From Pyrinomonadaceae bacterium (GTDB lineage Bacteria; Acidobacteriota; Blastocatellia; Pyrinomonadales; Pyrinomonadaceae), in contig JAVEDP010000026.1 in assembly GCA_030841085.1 (NCBI GenBank), positions 1-37,835 on the forward strand: DNA of 37,835 bases, given 5' to 3'. The notes under the pieces were generated by a model. The model searched no databases and was not told the origin of the DNA. It saw nothing but the letters and a program-made list of their open reading frames with translations. Position numbers and translations under genes: made by a program. Below are positions 3,604 through 37,828 of the stretch, piece after piece (within the stretch, counting starts at the first letter, position 1; each line of letters starts with the position of its first letter).

Positions 3604-3943
3604 AGGGGAACTTCTCCTAAATTTTATTATTGCCGCAACTACTCTAGTGAGGAGCTACTCGGGAGGGCGAAACCATAATAATGGGCCGGAAATCATTGAA
3701 CAAGCGGCAATGTGACTGTTTCGTGACGAATCACAAACGTGCGCAACACTGCGACCCAAAAGAGGTCACGAGGATATTTTTTTGAAAGGGAGATGTGTGA
3801 GTGAATGCGTCCAAAATGTCTGACAGAAAATATAATCAGTCAATGTGAACCCTTATTAGTTGGCGCGGTGCAGCAGGCGACAGAGATTAATGGCGAATAA
3901 AAGAGTGAGTGCAAGAGTCATGGGACAAGCTCCCGCATGATCC
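3604..3943. other. Long upstream region of NlpC/P60 gene, no gene seen
   Basis: No convincing open frame. Read towards the NlpC/P60 gene it holds small hairpins (GTGATTCGTCAC; GACC...GGGTC) and an AT-rich stretch near 3828-3835 that could contain a promoter. I compared it by eye with c-di-AMP and c-di-GMP riboswitches, which often precede such hydrolases, and did not find their conserved cores. Confidence 0.4.
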
Positions 3944-4078
3944 GTAAAGCAAACTGTTAGTTTGCGTCGTCGTTGGCAATCGAGTTGATACGAAGAAAAG
4001 AGATTGAATCGGTGGTGAGTTCCGTAAAAGACGAAGCGAGATTCTAGCCAACCACCGCAAACTAACAGTTTGCTTTAC
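3944..4078. repeat. Palindrome family 1, inverted pair (copy B)
   Basis: Arms at 3944-3966 and 4055-4078 match those of the copy at 2572-2678; the 88-bp spacer does not. On the minus strand the arm begins one nucleotide after the TAA stop of the ATP-grasp gene. Confidence 0.93.
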
Positions 4079-4079
4079 G

Positions 4080-5147
4080 TTAACTGCCTTGATTAGCAGC
4101 CTGGTAGTTCATTCCGACTGTCATAATTTTTTGCAGTAACTGATCGTAAGGAAGTCCGCTGTGCGCCGCTGAATCGGCGAAGTCTTCATTTTCAGCAATC
4201 TGCGGATTGGGATTGGCCTCGAGCAGATAGAACTGGCCTTCTTCAGTCAGCCGATAATCAAGCCGTGCATAACCGCTCAAAAACATGTAACGGTAAATTC
4301 GTTTTGATAAGCGCTCGAGCATCTTGTGTTGCTCAGGAGTCAGTTCGGCCGCGCGTGTCTTGACGCCCACTTTCTCCTGGTAGGCAGGATCCCACTTTAC
4401 TTTGAGGGTGGCGATATTTTCCGACCCTTCCGGCAGTTTCTCCATCACGAGTTCCCACGGCGAATACGTCTGAATGTTCGTGTTTCCAATTACGCCCACG
4501 TAAATCTCCCGGCCTTTTATGTATTGCTCGGCGATGGCTGCGGTCCTGTTTTGGCGGTGAATAAACTCGACGCGCTGGCTCAGTTTCTCGTCGTCGTGAA
4601 CGATTGAAGCCTGGGCAATGCCAACTGAACCCTCCTCGCTAATCGACTTGACCAGCAGGGGGAACTTCAAACGCTTTGGCCGACGGACCTTGCGATTCAT
4701 GGGAAACACCGCAAAATTTGGCACCTGAATGCGGTGATAACTGAGAATCATTTTCGTGAGGGCCTTGTCGTGGGCCAGGGTCAGACCGCGCGGATTGCAA
4801 CCGGTATAGGCCTGCTTCATCAGTTCGAGATAGCTGACGACATGCTGATCGTAAAGCGGATAACCGTGAAACTCTTCCAACAGGTTAAAAGCGATGTGGG
4901 GTTTATGTTCGAGCAACGCATTGCCAATCGCATTGAGCTGATTGTAGAGGCCGACTGGATAAACCTCATGCCCCATCTTCTTCAGAGTTGAGATTACGTC
5001 GTACTCAGTTTTGATCTCGATCTTTTCCTTGTCGCTGAGGCCGTCGAGGGTCTCGGGCGGCACCAGATCCTGATGGACCAGGACAATGATGCGCAACTTC
5101 TTCTTCGGCTCGAAAATCTCCTTCTTCTTTTTTGATTTAGAAGTCAT
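4080..5147 (-). CDS. D-Ala-D-Ala ligase-like ATP-grasp enzyme
   Basis: A 355-residue ATP-grasp ligase. Such enzymes activate a carboxylate with ATP and join it to an amine; the closest fold is D-alanine-D-alanine ligase. Visible features: basic N-terminus (residues 1-18), N-terminal Rossmann-like part, AHDKALTK (125-132), the ATP-binding lysine in FPLLVKS (K167), the flexible glycine loop EEGSVGI (171-177), EQYIKGREIYVGV (207-219), and the metal-binding residues D297 (ARLDYR) and E310/N312 (LLEANPNP). The start at 5147 forms an ATGA overlap with the stop of the upstream metallopeptidase, which indicates translational coupling; a longer frame to 5267 is not used. It is unlikely to be the housekeeping Ddl because of this context and an atypical N-terminus. 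Substrate unknown. Confidence 0.87.
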   Translation of the reverse strand: MTSKSKKKKEIFEPKKKLRIIVLVHQDLVPPETLDGLSDKEKIEIKTEYDVISTLKKMGHEVYPVGLYNQLNAIGNALLEHKPHIAFNLLEEFHGYPLYDQHVVSYLELMKQAYTGCNPRGLTLAHDKALTKMILSYHRIQVPNFAVFPMNRKVRRPKRLKFPLLVKSISEEGSVGIAQASIVHDDEKLSQRVEFIHRQNRTAAIAEQYIKGREIYVGVIGNTNIQTYSPWELVMEKLPEGSENIATLKVKWDPAYQEKVGVKTRAAELTPEQHKMLERLSKRIYRYMFLSGYARLDYRLTEEGQFYLLEANPNPQIAENEDFADSAAHSGLPYDQLLQKIMTVGMNYQAANQGS

Positions 5148-7049: not shown

Positions 7050-7084
7050 TTTTTCTGCCGCGGATTAACGCGGATGTTTCAGTG

Positions 7085-7242
7085 CAGAACCGCGAGCGGT
7101 AGCGACCGGATGCTAAAGTCAACCCGAACCGGTTTACCCGGATTGAATGCTCATTTACCCGCAATTGAATGCAGCATCCGGTCGCATCCACCACCCCCCG
7201 CGGGCTGCCCGCGCGGGGGCCCCGGTCCGCTCGCGGTTCCGC
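7085..7242. repeat. Palindrome family 6 pair with a second repeat nested in it
   Basis: Left arm 7085-7113 carries the core AGCGGTAGCGACCGG that also flanks the RAYT gene at 27517-27551 and 28123-28157. The right arm is split: 7174-7185 and 7227-7242 are its two halves, separated by about 41 bp (7186-7226) that form a very GC-rich hairpin (GCGGGCTGCCCGC flanked by C5/G5). A related motif CCGCGGATTAACGCGGAT lies just before it at 7060-7077. Confidence 0.8.
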
Positions 7243-7246
7243 ATGA

Positions 7247-8583: not shown

Positions 8584-8616
8584 CTGGGATCGCGGGCGGG
8601 ACGCCCGCGATCCCAG
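8584..8616. repeat. Palindrome family 3, single perfect hairpin
   Basis: A 33-bp perfect palindrome with core GCGGGCGGGACGCCCGC and flanking CTGGGATC/GATCCCAG. The same core recurs at 24495-24614 and 31697-31802. It lies between the divergent MFS gene and the glucan synthase gene, so it may sit in both leaders. Confidence 0.88.
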
Positions 8617-8718
8617 TTCGTGATATTCTGATGTAATCAAAATCACTTTAATAACTTTGCTCGCGCCGGATGCGCGGCAAGGCCGACCAACGAAAGCTGG
8701 TAATATTTTCAAACATCG

Positions 8719-17563: not shown

Positions 17564-17623
17564 AGTGGCATAGACTTTAGTCTGTGTCTTCGTCGGCAGC
17601 CACAGACTAAAGTCTGTGCCACT
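17564..17623. repeat. Palindrome family 2, inverted pair
   Basis: Arms 17564-17586 and 17601-17623, each a hairpin with core AGACTTTAGTCT in flanks AGTGGCA/GTG, face each other around a 14-bp spacer. The element starts 17 bp after the glucan synthase stop. A same-sized 60-bp copy lies at 26873-26932. Confidence 0.92.
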
Positions 17624-17658
17624 CGAATATCACTGCTCTAGTTAGTTACAATCAATCC

Positions 17659-18914: not shown

Positions 18915-19036
18915 AGTGGCACAGACTTTAGTCTGTGGCTGCGAGCGAAACACAGACTATGTGTATTCCACTAATTCAATTTTTCCGGACTTTGGTCTGT
19001 CGCTGCTAGCGAAACACAGACTAAAAGTCTATGCAA
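18915..19036. repeat. Palindrome family 2, two degenerate copies in tandem
   Basis: The first copy (18915-18972) has a perfect left arm with core CACAGACTTTAGTCTGTG and a decayed right arm. The second (18986-19036) has a decayed left arm and a recognisable right arm. Both spacers contain GCGAAA. Located between the DUF763 and lipoprotein genes. Confidence 0.82.
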
Positions 19037-21536: not shown

Positions 21537-21627
21537 TCACAGGCAGTACAAATTAGAGTTGGATTTTAAGAGAACACAAGCCGCAGAGGCACGAACCTCA
21601 GGGCAAGGATTCAAGAAGAACAATCTC

Positions 21628-21765
21628 ATGGTCGGAAGCCGGGCATGCCCCCGCTCTTGCGTCCGTGGTATTCACCGAGCGGGGCATGCCCCCTTCCCAA
21701 CCACAAGCTTTGTTGCGCCCACCGAAACCAGCGGGGGGCCTGCCCCGTTCCCGACCACGAGCTTG
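21628..21765. repeat. Palindrome family 5, three arms
   Basis: Three related GC-rich arms: 21631-21657 (reverse), 21676-21707 and 21730-21763 (forward), with the core CGGGCATGCCCCCGCTC and a tail of the type TTCCCGACCACGAGC. Related arms are at 25829-25964 and 37800-37828. The 394-bp gap 21537-21930 holds no other structure that I can identify. Confidence 0.78.
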
Positions 21766-23418: not shown

Positions 23419-23428
23419 ATCGTCAGTC

Positions 23429-23519
23429 GGAGGCCAGAGGTCAGAGATCAGAGGTCGGAGGTCAGAAGTCAGAAATCAGAGGTCGGAGGTCGGAGGTCAA
23501 AGGGCAGACGTCAGAGGTC
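23429..23519. repeat. Heptamer tandem array, left arm (13 units)
   Basis: Thirteen consecutive 7-bp units of the type RGAGGTC (for example AGAGGTC, GGAGGTC, AGAAGTC) keep perfect 7-bp phase although individual units differ at one to three positions. It begins 10 bp after the VOC stop codon and is inverted relative to the array at 23586-23669. Confidence 0.93.
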
Positions 23520-23585
23520 CAAGCCGGCGCTACCACGTAGATAGAGGAAAAAAAACTATTGCGCACCGGTCGCAAACGGTTCATC

Positions 23586-23669
23586 TTCTGACTTCTGACT
23601 TCTGACTTCTGACTTCTGAATTCTGACTTCTGACTTCTGACTTCTGACTTCTGACTTCTGACTTCTGGC
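23586..23669. repeat. Heptamer tandem array, right arm (12 units)
   Basis: Twelve 7-bp units TTCTGAC, ten of them identical (one TTCTGAA, last TTCTGGC). This is the reverse complement of the AGAAGTC unit type of the left array, 66 bp away, so the two arrays could pair over about 80 bp. It ends 11 bp before the GTG start of the 5' nuclease. Confidence 0.94.
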
Positions 23670-23680
23670 ATCCGACACCC

Positions 23681-24553
23681 GTGATCATCCATCTCATCGA
23701 CGGCACCTACGAACTCTTTCGTCACTTTTACGGCATCCGGCGCTTCAAGAAAACTGATCCGCCTTTTGGCGCTGTGTCCGGCGTGCTGCACATGGTCGCG
23801 AAAATGATCGAAGACGGCGCCACACACCTCGGCGTCGCCACCGATCACGTCATCGAATCCTTCCGCAACGATCTTTGGCCAGGTTATAAAACCGGCGCCG
23901 GCATCGAGCGAGCGCTGTGGGCCCAGTTTCATCCGTTGGAAGAGGCACTCACGGCGATGGGTATCGTGGTATGGCCCATGGTGGAATTGGAGGCCGACGA
24001 TGCGCTGGCTTCCGCGGCATATCTTGCCGCAAAAGATAAACGCGTGGAGAAGGTTTGCATTTGGACGCCGGACAAGGATCTGGCGCAGTGCGTTGTCGCC
24101 GATCGCGTGGTGCAAATCGATCGCAGAAAAAATGAGATTCGCGATGAAGCCGGGATTCGCGCGAAGTTTGGTGTAGCACCGGAGTTCATCGCTGATTATC
24201 TTGCGCTCGTTGGTGACGCGGCCGACGGCTATCCCGGAATTCCCGGGCTTGGAGCGAAGACCGCGGCGGCGCTTATCAACCGCCATGGTCACATCGAAGA
24301 CTTTCCTGCAGGTGTTCTAAAAGACGGTAACTTGGCCCCCGCGCTGCTGTTCAAGGACCTGGCAACCTTGCGAACCGACGCGCCGCTATTTCGCAAGGTT
24401 GACGAGTTGCGGTGGAAAAGACCGACCTCATCCTTTGCCGGATGGACTGAAAAGATTGGCGATGCGCGCCTGGCAGCGCGGGTGGAGAAATTATTGGGAC
24501 CGGGTGCGTCCCGCCCGCAATCACTGGGACCGCGGGCGTCCCGCCCGCAATGA
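23681..24553 (+). CDS. Stand-alone 5'-3' exonuclease (Pol I 5' nuclease domain family)
   Basis: A 290-residue structure-specific 5' nuclease like the N-terminal domain of DNA polymerase I, without polymerase. Metal-binding acidic residues are visible: D7 (HLIDGTYE), ATDH, ELEADDALA, TPDKDLAQ and GDAADGYPG, and the helix-3-turn-helix region IPGLGAKTAAALI. It probably removes RNA primers or flaps. GTG 23681 is the start by position of D7; no Shine-Dalgarno is present because the heptamer array ends 11 bp upstream. The last ~19 residues (LGPGASRPQ then SLGPRASRPQ) are encoded by two family 3 palindromes, so the natural C-terminus probably ended near VEKLL and the repeat supplied a new stop. The catalytic domain appears complete. 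Confidence 0.88.
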   Translation: MIIHLIDGTYELFRHFYGIRRFKKTDPPFGAVSGVLHMVAKMIEDGATHLGVATDHVIESFRNDLWPGYKTGAGIERALWAQFHPLEEALTAMGIVVWPMVELEADDALASAAYLAAKDKRVEKVCIWTPDKDLAQCVVADRVVQIDRRKNEIRDEAGIRAKFGVAPEFIADYLALVGDAADGYPGIPGLGAKTAAALINRHGHIEDFPAGVLKDGNLAPALLFKDLATLRTDAPLFRKVDELRWKRPTSSFAGWTEKIGDARLAARVEKLLGPGASRPQSLGPRASRPQ

Positions 24554-24614
24554 GCGCGCAGCGCGAACAGTTTGGACCATTCAACCATGTCTGGTAACGC
24601 AGCGCCGGCGGGCG
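24495..24614. repeat. Palindrome family 3, two direct arms plus a truncated right arm
   Basis: Arms at 24495-24518 and 24524-24548 (core GCGGGCGTCCCGCCCGC) lie inside the 3' end of the 5' nuclease gene. The following 50 bp, with AATGAGCGCGCAGCGCGAAC, is shared with the spacer of the intact copy at 31697-31802. The right arm survives only as GGCGGGCG at 24607-24614. Confidence 0.87.
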
Positions 24615-25714: not shown

Positions 25715-25828
25715 AGCATCTCCAGTAAATTCTGATGAGATAAATAACCGCGTCGACTATATCTCTAAGGCGTTAACTTTAACTTATCAAGCAGTGTTGT
25801 CGCTGAGAAAAATATAAAAGGGCTGCTA

Positions 25829-25964
25829 AGAGCGGGGGCAAGCCCACCTTCCCGACCTCGAGCTGTTCATATTTCCGAGTTCATCGCCGCCGGACTGCTT
25901 TCAACGTAAAGTAATCGCGCGCCCAGGAACTCGAGGTCGGGAAGGCGGGCTTGCCCCCGCTCTT
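25829..25964. repeat. Palindrome family 5, inverted pair
   Basis: Arms 25829-25863 and 25930-25964 are near-perfect inverted copies (35 bp) around a 66-bp spacer, containing the core AGCGGGGGCAAGCCC followed by the tail TTCCCGACCTCGAG. It occupies the gap (25715-26056) between the small membrane gene and the acetyltransferase gene; beyond it I see only a decayed CCGCGGATAAACG-type motif near 26035-26050. Confidence 0.9.
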
Positions 25965-26938: not shown

Positions 26939-27451
26939 CTACCGAAACTGATTGTCGTCGGCGGATGGTCCATAAATGGCCGGGACCTTCGCGCCGAGCA
27001 AACGCAAATAGACGGTCATTTGACCGCGATGATGCGCCCAATGATTGAAGGTGTCCTGAATCATCTGGTAACGCGGCGCTTCCATTACCACTTGCCCGCG
27101 AGCAAGTAGACGCCAATTAGTCATTAGGTGCTCGTCCGTCGTCTTCTCAAACGCCGAACGTGCGACAGCTGCGGATTTGTCGAGTGCCGCGATCAACTCC
27201 GCGCTTGTGTCCATGCGTTTGTGTTCCATTTTCGACTCACCTGGAGCAGGTGCAACATCCAACTCGGCATCCGTGATTTGCAGACCTATCCAGTTAGGAA
27301 TCGTTGCCACCATGTTTGCCAGGTAGCCGAGAATCATCGACTTCTCGTGTGGCTTCCACTCGTACTTGCCTTCGGGCATTTGTTCCAGCGCGCTGCGCGA
27401 ACGCTCCACCTCGCGGTCCAGTTCTGCTTGTAGGAATTCTGTTAGTTTCAT
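26939..27451 (-). CDS. DinB-like/YfiT-type four-helix protein
   Basis: A 170-residue four-helix-bundle protein of the DinB/YfiT superfamily, whose members include thiol transferases and metal-dependent enzymes. The C-terminal ligand motif NHWAHHRGQM is present, and EWKPHEKSMILGYLANMV matches a common subfamily pattern. The first helix ligand, usually His in LAxHVAxxPxW, is Met here (LANMVATIPNW), so metal binding is likely changed; this variant is seen in one DinB branch by my recollection. Start codons ATG 27451 and ATG 27460 are both possible; the shorter is preferred because MKLTEFLQ opens the first helix. No ribosome binding site is clear. The heptamer array at 27462-27489 sits directly upstream. 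Confidence 0.85.
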   Translation of the reverse strand: MKLTEFLQAELDREVERSRSALEQMPEGKYEWKPHEKSMILGYLANMVATIPNWIGLQITDAELDVAPAPGESKMEHKRMDTSAELIAALDKSAAVARSAFEKTTDEHLMTNWRLLARGQVVMEAPRYQMIQDTFNHWAHHRGQMTVYLRLLGAKVPAIYGPSADDNQFR

Positions 27452-27461
27452 GGAAAGCATA

Positions 27462-27489: not shown

Positions 27490-27516
27490 GCGCCAGGATT
27501 AGCCACTGTGGGTCGA

Positions 27517-28157
27517 CGAATACGGAACCGGAAGCGGTAGCGACCGGGTCGTTGTCGGCCCGGCATGAAACAACCAGGAAACCTGATCTCAGGGCAGCGG
27601 TTCGCCCTGCTCATATTCTACGTACACTATGGCGTTGATGATGTCCGGTTCCGTCCACAAATATTTCTTAGTACCCTTCTCAACCCAGGGGCTTCTGCTT
27701 GAATTCCAACAACCCGCTTCCCTCAATTTTCGAGTTGCGTTCGCTTTGAAAGCGCTGAGGATTTTTTCCGGTTTGCACGCCGCTGACACCACGGTATGAA
27801 CGTGGTTAGTTCGTATATTAGTTACCCAAAACTCCCATTTGCGAATCTTGCAGGTCTCACGAATTGCTTCCTCGACAGCTTTTCTCTGGCGGCGACTCAA
27901 TTTCACGACGGGTGGCTGACTGAGCAAACTTCTATTGTATTTTTTCCACCGTTTGTTTTGAGCAATTCGTGGCGTGCCAAAGCGATTATGAAACCGATCG
28001 ATTGAGCCCCGCTCATCGCCATGAAGCCAGGTGCCATAACTACGAAAGGTGATTAGGTAACCGAGCGGAAAAACTTCATCTTGAGATTCGCGGCTCATTG
28101 CCGTAGTTCTATATCGCAGGTTCGACCCGGTCGCTACCGCTCACGGTTCTGTATTCG
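27517..28157. mobile_element. RAYT unit: transposase gene between 35-bp inverted palindromic arms
   Basis: Arms 27517-27551 and 28123-28157 are inverted and agree at nearly every position (about 32 of 35; three mismatches by eye). Each contains the hairpin core AGCGGTAGCGACCGGGTC. Between them lies a complete Y1-type transposase gene, 37 bp from the left arm and 24 bp from the right. A further copy of the arm without a transposase is at 7085-7242, consistent with mobilisation in trans. Confidence 0.85.
27589..28098 (-). CDS. REP-associated tyrosine transposase (RAYT, Y1_Tnp/IS200-like)
   Basis: A 169-residue HUH-superfamily single-strand transposase. The two metal-binding histidines form NHVHTVV (H99, H101), and the catalytic tyrosine is most likely Y159 in NAIVYVEYEQG at the C-terminus. 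The opening YLITFRSYGTWLHGDERGS is characteristic of the RAYT branch rather than classical IS200. RAYTs cut and join at short palindromic REP sequences and are usually single-copy, non-self-propagating genes. This one has an intact frame and key residues and is flanked by inverted arms, so it may be active. It likely mobilises family 6 palindromes; whether it also acts on the other families is unknown. Confidence 0.92.
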   Translation of the reverse strand: MSRESQDEVFPLGYLITFRSYGTWLHGDERGSIDRFHNRFGTPRIAQNKRWKKYNRSLLSQPPVVKLSRRQRKAVEEAIRETCKIRKWEFWVTNIRTNHVHTVVSAACKPEKILSAFKANATRKLREAGCWNSSRSPWVEKGTKKYLWTEPDIINAIVYVEYEQGEPLP

Positions 28158-28337
28158 TTTTGCCACAATGCAAGAAATTTGGCTAAGGCTGAATTTGGAT
28201 GAGCATCCTGACGGTAGTAGAAATCGGTTTCAGGCCAGCTAGGACTCTCTGGTGTATGATGTTGTAAATAAGAACTCTGCGGCAATTAAAAGCTCCTTTG
28301 ATGTGCACAGTTTCCTATCTCCACGCAACGACGTGAA

Positions 28338-29747
28338 ATGCTGATCCAACAGAACATCGCTCAGTCTTTCCATTCGCCGATTGTGTTGCTGGCGCTCGGC
28401 GCAATCGCGTGCGGACTGCTTTACGTGCTGTGGCGTGAAGTGAGAAAAATTCCTGCCAAGCTTTTCACGTTGATGGCCACGGCGTTCGTCGACATGCTGG
28501 GCCTGTTGATGATTATTCCGCTGCTGCCTTTTTATGTGAAGACGCTGGGCGGTGCGGGCGTCGATGTGCTGGGTATGCACATCGGCATCGGCCTCATCAT
28601 CGGCATCATCGTCGCCGCCTTCACGCTCGCACAACTGTTGAGCGCGCCGCTATGGGGTCATTTTTCTGACCGCGTAGGGCGCCGTCCCACTCTGCTCATT
28701 GCCTTAGGCGCCGCTGGCATTGCCTATCTTATTTTTGGTTTTGCTCACTCGCTGCTCTTGCTGTTCCTGTCGCGCGTCGTGCAGGGCGCAGGCGGCGGCA
28801 CCGTTGGCGTGATTCAGGCTTATGTGGCCGACTCGACCGATCCCAAAGATCGCGCGCGCGCGCTGGGATGGCTGTCGGCGACAACAAATCTTGGCGTGGC
28901 GCTGGGGCCGGTGCTCGGTTCTTTTGCACTTGCCCTGGGCAAACGCGACCTGATGCCGGGAGCGAGCACGTTGCACATGGGCCATGCGGCGCCGGGCATC
29001 ATGGCAGCGGCGCTTTGTCTGCTGAACATGGTCTTTGTGGCGCGCTATCTAAAGGAGTCGCGCGATTTTACGGAGAAGCCGAAGGCTGGTGAGATAGTTC
29101 AAACTTCGCGTCAGGCGATTTGGCGCGTCGTCTCGCATGCGAGCGAGCCGGCATCGCGCCTAATTTGGATCTACGCAATTGCCATCGGAGCTTTTCAGGG
29201 AAGTTTTTCGGTGCTCGCGCTTTTTTTGAATGCGCGCTTCCAAGTTACCGAACAAACTATCGGTTACTTCTTTATGTATGTCGGATCGATCTCAGTCTTC
29301 GCGCGCGTATTGCTGTTGGGCCGGGCCGTCGATTGGCTGGGGGAGGCAAATCTGTCGCGTCTGGGCCTCGCGCTGTTGGCCGCCGGCGTATTGGGCATGC
29401 CGTTGGCGCGAAATTTGGGAATGCTGGCGATCGCGGTGGCCTTGATTCCGTTAGGCACGGCCTTCACTTTTCCCTGCGTCACCGCATTACTGTCGCGCGT
29501 TATTAGTCAACGGGAGCGGGGTCTGTACATGGGGATGCAGCAAACGTATGGCGGAATCTCGCGCATCATCGCGCCGCTGTTTTTCGGTTGGGCGTTTGAT
29601 AGGCTGGGCGTGTCGTCGCCTTACTTTTTCTCAGCCGCATTCATTGTGGCCACGATTTTCCTCGGCTTCGGGCTGGACAAATATGCGAGGCCTGCTCGCG
29701 CTGCGGAGCGGGAGACAGCGGCCGCGACTCGAAAGCAGGAAGCTTAG
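28338..29747 (+). CDS. MFS transporter, tetracycline/multidrug efflux-like, with an extra N-terminal helix
   Basis: A 469-residue permease. Motif A is clear in LWGHFSDRVGRRPTLL between helices 2 and 3, and RVVQGAGGGTVGVIQAYVAD is the typical helix 4 region (GTVGVIQAYVADST), similar to Tet/TCR24 efflux carriers. An additional hydrophobic stretch (residues 15-34, VLLALGAIACGLLYVLW) precedes the canonical first helix that starts at LFTLMATAFVDMLGLL. Second-half features (DWLG, RERGLYMGMQQTYGG) are intact. The start ATG 28338 has no strong ribosome binding site; an internal start would remove the extra helix. It ends one nucleotide before a family 1 palindrome. The exported compound is unknown. 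Confidence 0.9.
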   Translation: MLIQQNIAQSFHSPIVLLALGAIACGLLYVLWREVRKIPAKLFTLMATAFVDMLGLLMIIPLLPFYVKTLGGAGVDVLGMHIGIGLIIGIIVAAFTLAQLLSAPLWGHFSDRVGRRPTLLIALGAAGIAYLIFGFAHSLLLLFLSRVVQGAGGGTVGVIQAYVADSTDPKDRARALGWLSATTNLGVALGPVLGSFALALGKRDLMPGASTLHMGHAAPGIMAAALCLLNMVFVARYLKESRDFTEKPKAGEIVQTSRQAIWRVVSHASEPASRLIWIYAIAIGAFQGSFSVLALFLNARFQVTEQTIGYFFMYVGSISVFARVLLLGRAVDWLGEANLSRLGLALLAAGVLGMPLARNLGMLAIAVALIPLGTAFTFPCVTALLSRVISQRERGLYMGMQQTYGGISRIIAPLFFGWAFDRLGVSSPYFFSAAFIVATIFLGFGLDKYARPARAAERETAAATRKQEA

Positions 29748-29748
29748 T

Positions 29749-29831
29749 GTAAAGCAAACTGTTAGTTTGCGTTGGTTAACTTCACTCAAGTTGAGTGGAA
29801 CTAGCCGCCGCAAACTAACAGTTTGCTTTAC
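29749..29831. repeat. Palindrome family 1, inverted pair (copy C)
   Basis: Arms 29749-29771 and 29808-29831 with the same sequence as at 2572 and 3944, but with a 36-bp spacer. The left arm begins one nucleotide after the MFS stop codon TAG (29745-29747). Confidence 0.93.
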
Positions 29832-29852
29832 GAATACTTGAGGCTACTAACT

Positions 29853-31567: not shown

Positions 31568-31696
31568 TCGAATTTTCAAGCGAAAACGTTTGGCGAGTTA
31601 TTGTGAACGCTGCAAGCAACAAGTTCCAATCGATGTGTGATTCTCTCGCAGGAGTCACGGTTGAGGCAAGGATGCACGACGGCTTGCTGCCAAATG

Positions 31697-31802
31697 CTGG
31701 GACCGCGGGCGTCCCGCCCGCAATGAGCGCGCAGCGCGAACAATTCGACCACTCAAACGTTGTGGTAACGCAGCCAGGCGGGCGGGACGCCCGCGGTCCC
31801 AG
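31697..31802. repeat. Palindrome family 3, intact inverted pair
   Basis: Arms 31697-31721 and 31778-31802 are perfect 25-bp inverted copies (core GCGGGCGTCCCGCCCGC) around a 56-bp spacer. Much of the spacer is shared with the damaged copy at 24549-24601. It lies in the divergent gap (31568-31891) between lptE and the double-barrel gene, so it sits upstream of both; the rest of the gap shows nothing recognisable. Confidence 0.92.
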
Positions 31803-31891
31803 TGTACAAGTTCCAACACAATAGGAACTTGCTTGACTTCACCGATCTATGAACGTTAAGTTGCGGCGCTGGACGTTACGAAAGCTAACTC

Positions 31892-37703: not shown

Positions 37704-37799
37704 TTGTTCCTTCGTCACGCCACCCGATTGTCTTGGTTGCTCTGCATTTGAGTCAACCCAACCTCAGGTTCCCAGAATTCACTTAGGCAAAAAATATCA

Positions 37800-37828
37800 G
37801 GTTAGGAAGGGTGGCTTGCCCCCGCTCT
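37800..37828. repeat. Palindrome family 5, single arm at the window edge
   Basis: GGCTTGCCCCCGCTCT with the preceding GGAAGGGT matches the right arm of the family 5 element at 25930-25964. Its partner, if any, lies beyond the window. Confidence 0.75.

Follow-up and report, generated by a model that had tools for sequence, protein, structure and literature searches.

A putative class 3 RAYT gene between inverted hairpin arms in an acidobacterial genome, and its probable role as a resident REPtron

The window is the whole stretch of 37,835 nucleotides analysed here from a Pyrinomonadaceae bacterium, and its features are listed in Table 1. The main feature is a RAYT gene of the Y1 nuclease type, the protein of which matches the Pfam Y1_Tnp family with 27.4 bits, above the cut-off of 23 (E 4.1e-6), and scores far under the cut-off of the NCBIfam IS200/IS605 model (26.1 against 55). 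An intact HVH (H99 and H101) and a plausible Y159 had been described in the initial annotation, and all three residues are present. In the aligned relatives, His occupies the H99 column in 29 of 30 rows and the H101 column in 30 of 30. Column 159 of the 30-row alignment holds Tyr in 27 of the 28 rows bearing a letter, and column 164 holds Gln in all 27 such rows. The Y----Q motif of the class 3 TnpA-Y1 enzymes thus follows the HUH motif in this protein (Y159, Q164). A search of solved structures gave no relevant chain, and one IMG/VR scan gave no relative. The AlphaFold model, built from a two-row alignment, had a pLDDT of 37.8 and was dropped.

Table 1. Features of the window and their positions
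Feature	Positions	Strand	Remarks
Palindrome GCAAACTGTTAGTTTGC / AAAGCAAACTGTTAGTTTGC	2571-2681, 3940-4083, 29744-29835		Frames Y1-like gene C29:106310 (L048)
Type A REPIN without gene	7083..7243		Left arm 7085-7109; right arm 7178-7243 with GC-rich loop insertion
Palindrome GGGACCGCGGGCGTCCCGCCCGC	8589-8617, 24489-24572, 31692-31804		Two inverted copies frame Y1 gene C35:33284 (L040)
Palindrome CACAGACTnnAGTCTGTG	17564-17627, 18915-19023, 26870-26935		Copies on both sides of Y1 match C23:21298 (L045)
Palindrome AGCGGGGGCAWGCCC	21619-21657, 25828-25964, 37790-37828		Inverted copies frame Y1 gene C16:111114 (L039)
Type B arm, 3' side of gene	27504..27551	+	Foot CGGA 27523-27526; hairpin 27528-27547, apex GC-GGTA-GC
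Class 3 RAYT / TnpA-Y1 gene, type B arms	27589..28098	minus	ORF, 169 aa; H99-V-H101, Y159----Q164
Type B arm, 5' side of gene, inverted	28123..28170	minus	Foot CAGA and hairpin, 28151-28127

The gene is flanked by two inverted arms of 48 nt with 83% identity. Inverted arms of 35 bp had been noted at this place and are real; the best-scoring part spans 36 nt (27516-27551 and 28123-28158), and the full arms are somewhat longer. The flanking inverted repeat scored 57, compared with a maximum of 24 in 183 shuffles, and is beyond chance. The feet CGGA and CAGA of the two hairpins both have the 5' CnGA form of class 3.

The 16-mer core of the arm (GAGCGGTAGCGACCGG) has 81 matches with at most two mismatches in the 4,688,395 bases of the source genome G000 (4.69 Mb, 43 contigs); the reversed control gave 13. 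Arms that are not repeated elsewhere in the genome, an outcome that the initial annotation had set against its own reading, are thereby excluded. Forty-six core places were read, 44 in the genome and two in the window. They comprise 32 two-arm elements, two three-arm places and twelve single arms, among which L053, L060, L068 and L082 may be chance matches. All the two-arm elements are convergent (+-) with the foot outward, and 31 of them are shorter than 300 nt, with core-to-core distances of 72-241 nt. The 32 include the unit of the window gene itself, and a second RAYT gene (C6) lies at one of the three-arm places. The locus therefore shows the layout of a REPtron with its REPINs, a RAYT with flanking repeats that are dispersed as inverted pairs.

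Two arm subfamilies were recognised in the source genome, namely type A (TGCAGAACCGCGAGCGGTAGCGACCGGATGC) and the longer type B (GTGGGTCGACGAATACAGAACCGG...GGGTC). The 32 two-arm elements comprise 13 AA pairs, 17 BB pairs and two in which one arm is unclassed; in one of the latter (L078) the left arm combines features of A and B. None of the pairs is clearly A/B. The genome has two such RAYT genes, which are 66% identical in DNA and have different arms. Type B arms flank the window gene; type A arms flank the second, which is frameshifted ahead of the Tyr motif. Because of this frameshift, the type B enzyme may act on the type A population as well, or that population may be dying. The relative G011 keeps some type A arms, though it has no gene at the position orthologous to the type A unit; its 28 distinct arms comprise 4 of type A by the strict rule, 11 of type B and 13 unclassed. 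A gene-free copy at 7085-7242 had been reported to share the hairpin core of the window gene. The common core is real (21 of 23 nt); the copy belongs to the sister subfamily, type A, and not to the type B of the window gene. Moreover, a GC-rich insertion of roughly 25-40 nt was observed at one fixed loop point of type A arms, at 7178-7243, in L089 and in L205, L207, L210, L214 and L215 of G011. Type A arms with this insertion, found in two species, are a third arm variant.

Four other palindrome families of the window were also observed, and each frames another Y1-like gene of the source genome (Table 1). The 20-mer of the palindrome framing L048 has 303 genome matches with two mismatches (control 0), many of the listed ones in inverted pairs about 60 nt apart; the Pfam score of L048 is 19.9, under the cut-off of 23. 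The palindrome GGGACCGCGGGCGTCCCGCCCGC has 75 genome matches (control 0). The genome counts cover these two families, and the apparent framing by CACAGACTnnAGTCTGTG and AGCGGGGGCAWGCCC is judged by vicinity, which may be due to chance. One copy of CACAGACTnnAGTCTGTG lies inside the N-terminal extension of the L045 open frame, and copies of AGCGGGGGCAWGCCC also adjoin L043 and L035. A fifth family, GCGGCTTGACGCCGC, frames none of the 16 Y1 loci. Among the other Y1 genes of the genome, L033-L037 have ends that read like YI.NQ..HH, and L038 is truncated. Inverted repeats built from other palindromes surround L033-L036 and L038 (scores 52-120); L037 has no such frame (22). L033-L038 resemble a class apart, with repeats of its own. 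At 23426-23681, 7-nt tandem arrays (CTTCTGA-like and the complement) run towards one another, forming a long but imperfect inverted repeat.

The named relatives are one Blastocatellia MAG and one Pyrinomonadaceae MAG, which bears out the acidobacterial host presumed earlier. RAYT homologues at E <= 1e-10 were found in 32 of 97 genomes, and the arm core at one mismatch in 47 of the 97 (own genome included in both). The nearest protein is that of G011 (82% identity); that of G005 is in two pieces (74% and 80%), and the remaining listed homologues that cover most of the length share at most 64%. Among 15 genus relatives, ten have the gene plus at least 10 core matches. G003, G010 and G015 are without the gene and have few or no core matches (3, 0 and 0); G007 has the gene only, and G013 has the repeats only (55 core matches, and no RAYT match in an assembly that is 62% complete). 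Phylum-wide, a profile match at 1e-15 was found in 31 of 396 genomes, own included. A part of the loci found was pooled as 91 distinct RAYT loci from 50 genomes; 10 of 101 had been dropped as repeats, nine as the same place sampled twice and L301 as a near-identical gene of another genome. Of the 90 loci with enough flank, 82 are framed by an inverted repeat that outscores all 450 shuffles; the exceptions are L113, L119, L298, L302, L308, L330, L336 and L342, which lack a repeat of this score.

The flanks were searched for hairpins by pairing only; an outer stem of 4 bp (a single G-T pair was tolerated) and an inner stem of 2 bp were required, and foot and loop were left free. This search gave 697 matches, compared with 219-263 in five shuffles. 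The commonest feet were CAGA, CAGT and CGGA; CnGT is also present in relatives. The loop was GNNA in 98 of the 126 distinct hairpins with a CnG[AT] foot, compared with 22 of the 402 with other feet, many of which are the reverse strand of CnG[AT]-footed ones. For the covariation analysis, 175 distinct arms were chosen by foot, loop and G/C letters with pairing not imposed, and 35 with a 7-nt 5' side were excluded from the count. At the four outer positions, Watson-Crick pairs fill 406 of the 560 cells (mean 241 and maximum 272 in 1000 permutations), and in 33-43% when slid; the inner stem is Watson-Crick in 115 of 140 arms (permutation maximum 80). These permutation figures, like the Mantel figure below, overstate the evidence because related sequences are non-independent. 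The stronger point is the variety of compensated stems, seen as CCGC/GCGG, CCAC/GTGG, CCAT/ATGG, CCGT/ACGG, GCCC/GGGC, ACAC/GTGT and ACGC/GCGT. The layer above the outer stem is GA/GA in 45 and CT/GG in 22 of 99 well-folded arms.

Protein distance and arm distance are correlated (Mantel r 0.434, reached in 0 of 2000 permutations), which owes something to shared ancestry; the test used 63 of 76 loci with arms, after short or stop-bearing proteins and poorly folded arms were dropped. The protein-arm specificity is not one-to-one, because three pairs, each within one genome, share an identical best arm despite proteins that differ by 21-50% (L103/L336, L105/L334 and L287/L310).

These data suggest an arm model with a CnG[AT] foot, one nucleotide (mostly A) and an outer stem of 4-5 bp that changes by compensation. 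Above this stem the model places a tandem G.A/A.G mismatch (alternatively C:G plus T.G), then an inner stem of 2 bp and a loop that is mostly GNNA. The d(cGNNAg) loops are unusually stable in DNA. GNNA as a strict loop rule was rejected; type B arms also have AGTA, CGTA and TGTA, and L097 has CTTA. A hairpin of the whole element, with the left arm paired to the right, was set aside by inspection as a conserved structure because changes in one arm are often unmatched in the other. The sequence next to the arms showed no cleavage dinucleotide that is conserved, and the TC or AC predicted from the foot found no support.

G011 has the window gene in the same position, flanked by ORFs 26939-27460 and 28338-29747, which we take to encode a DinB-like protein and an MFS protein, respectively. 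The orthologous junction in G015, G003 and G004 is about 60-85 nt long and empty, with flanks of 69-74% identity. G005 and G014 were left out of this comparison because the left neighbour is damaged in the former and the neighbours are in another order in the latter. A complete lack of empty sites among the relatives, which had also been named as evidence against a mobile unit, is therefore excluded as regards unoccupied orthologous junctions; a base-precise empty site was not found. The comparison with G011 covered 1,077,716 bases, and 12 of the 46 places could be judged with both flanks aligned. The sequence is kept at four of them (L050, L053, L069 and the window gene) and absent at eight (L051, L054, L072, L075, L081, L089, L090 and window 7085-7242); L056, with one flank, and L076 were left out of the count. 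The alignment at L053 runs for 2 kb free of gaps, and this place may reflect a chance match inside a gene. One flank of L078 lies in another G011 piece, and the arm is kept there. No base-precise empty site was found among the eight junctions, which are decayed. For example, an arm-end-like GCGGTTCTGCA remains in G011 at the place of 7085-7242, and the alignment resembles a deletion over CGCGG; this state looks like a loss rather than a pre-insertion site. A GGTTCTGCATT end likewise remains in G011 at the place of the type A gene. It is in the short two-arm elements (REPINs) that G000 and G011 differ.

From the sequence comparisons, the feature is very probably a REPtron, that is, a resident gene for a HUH/Tyr single-strand DNA nuclease (class 3 TnpA-Y1) between inverted copies of the hairpin that its product would recognise. 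The proposal that the gene is a RAYT with predicted cognate arms, repeated genome-wide, is supported. The "complete mobile unit" of the initial annotation is not supported, since the two genes of the source genome are only 66% identical, G011 shares the site and none of the 75 within-genome RAYT pairs compared exceeds 80% identity over 200 nt. The window gene is better read as a resident REPtron, with the small two-arm elements as its dispersed part. The protein may bind the arm when it is single-stranded and folded, probably on the template of the lagging strand, and might read its apex and foot. It would then cut beside the arm through Y159 and move or copy the short two-arm element to new sites, and the gene itself would be inherited in place while the REPINs spread.

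The feature might instead be an IS200/IS605-like insertion sequence, in which the entire unit, gene included, moves by transposition, with the short elements as its internal-deletion derivatives (MITEs). The gene does lie between the same inverted ends, in the same orientation, as the short elements, the type A gene unit is absent at its orthologous place in G011, and the Y----Q of class 3 resembles the Y---Q of class 1 (PMC6006769). This explanation is nevertheless unlikely, as near-identical RAYT copies within a genome, which IS200/IS605 elements have in multiple, were not found among the pairs compared. Among 75 within-genome RAYT pairs from the 50 genomes, only four gave a blastn match longer than 200 nt, the best at 79.9%. 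For each repeat type the source genome has a single full-length gene that stays in place: one intact type B gene, at the same site in G011, and one type A gene, now frameshifted. Three orthologue pairs of G429 and G460 (94-97%) also suggest inheritance in place, as judged by identity with synteny unaligned. Moreover, nine pairs taken from the most closely related ones show purifying selection, with dN/dS of 0.03-0.19 (dS approaches or exceeds 1 in four), and no gene remnant was recognised by eye in the spacers of the short elements. That the repeats are host-used sites (terminator, mRNA 3' end or protein binding) with a RAYT nearby by incident, as the RNA roles discussed for GTAG REPs (PMC3733652) might suggest, is very improbable, as the arms flank the gene at most of the pooled loci and co-diverge with the protein, and as the arm is made strand-specific by its foot and the pairs have a fixed orientation.

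The REPtron reading was compared with known systems. The kind is already known, because class 3 and acidobacterial Y1 genes with inverted repeats, including RAYT-like genes with repeated arms, are described in PMC6006769 and PMC3733652, the only relevant reports found on REP/REPIN in Acidobacteria. Class 3, as outlined by Quentin et al. 2018 (PMC6006769), has the Y----Q motif and CnGA foot and occurs in Planctomycetes, Acidobacteria and Proteobacteria, with about 600 copies in Solibacter; it was built from 10 members and enlarged to 24, and the choice between IS and REPtron was left open by its authors. Set against this description, the window unit fits a REPtron of class 3 TnpA-Y1 by its Y159----Q164, CnGA-type foot and acidobacterial host. 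Flanking 5' CnGA-foot hairpins, dispersed repeats and a conserved N-terminal part are likewise common to both. The features here that differ from that outline are the CnG[AT] foot, the covariation-backed hairpin with its mostly GNNA apex and tandem G.A, the convergent REPIN pairs and the two co-resident arm subfamilies. The covariation, the GNNA apex and the two-subfamily pairing were not found in print; the supplementary REP table of PMC6006769, which perhaps holds part of this, and most subscription papers lay outside the scope.

The TnpAREP enzymes with GT[AG]G REPs of E. coli and Stenotrophomonas, as covered in PMC8266576 and PMC6006769, share the HUH/Tyr enzyme, the REPtron layout, inverted REP pairs and a gene type tied to the repeat type; foot, bulge and loop are recognised by TnpAREP of other groups in the account of PMC8266576. 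The window arms are without GT[AG]G directly at the hairpin foot, in contrast to these REPs, and the Tyr motif is Y----Q; GTAG occurs within the apex, and GTGG outside the foot (27508, and 28166 on the minus strand). The TIRYT genes of Acidobacteria, described by Di Nocera et al. 2013 (PMC3733652), are also Y1 genes between terminal inverted repeats, and one case (Koribacter) belongs to a repeated family. Their TIR motif GGGGWSAS is absent from the window arms. The IS200/IS605 elements (TnpA class 1) have the HUH/Tyr family and hairpins near the ends in common with the window unit, whereas here there are no recent gene copies in the loci compared, and gene-less REPINs with the same arms are dispersed.

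Class 3 might tentatively be regarded as a separate REP grammar, although the odds are somewhat against it. A near-constant apex (a 2-bp stem closing a GNNA-type loop above the tandem G.A mismatch) and the CnG[AT] foot would serve catalysis, and the covarying outer stem and tail would be an address that separates co-resident REPIN populations, with several RAYT-REPIN pairs in one acidobacterial cell. If this is true, the co-evolution of enzyme and hairpin could be tested by swapping arms between the pairs. The 91 loci point to REPtron behaviour for class 3 and provide a compensated hairpin model of its substrate, and the natural enzyme-arm pairs are usable for direct binding and cleavage tests. 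The partnership is a known one, of which the window holds a member that has been little studied; hairpins from related genomes suggest by which structural rules the enzyme would recognise its arms.
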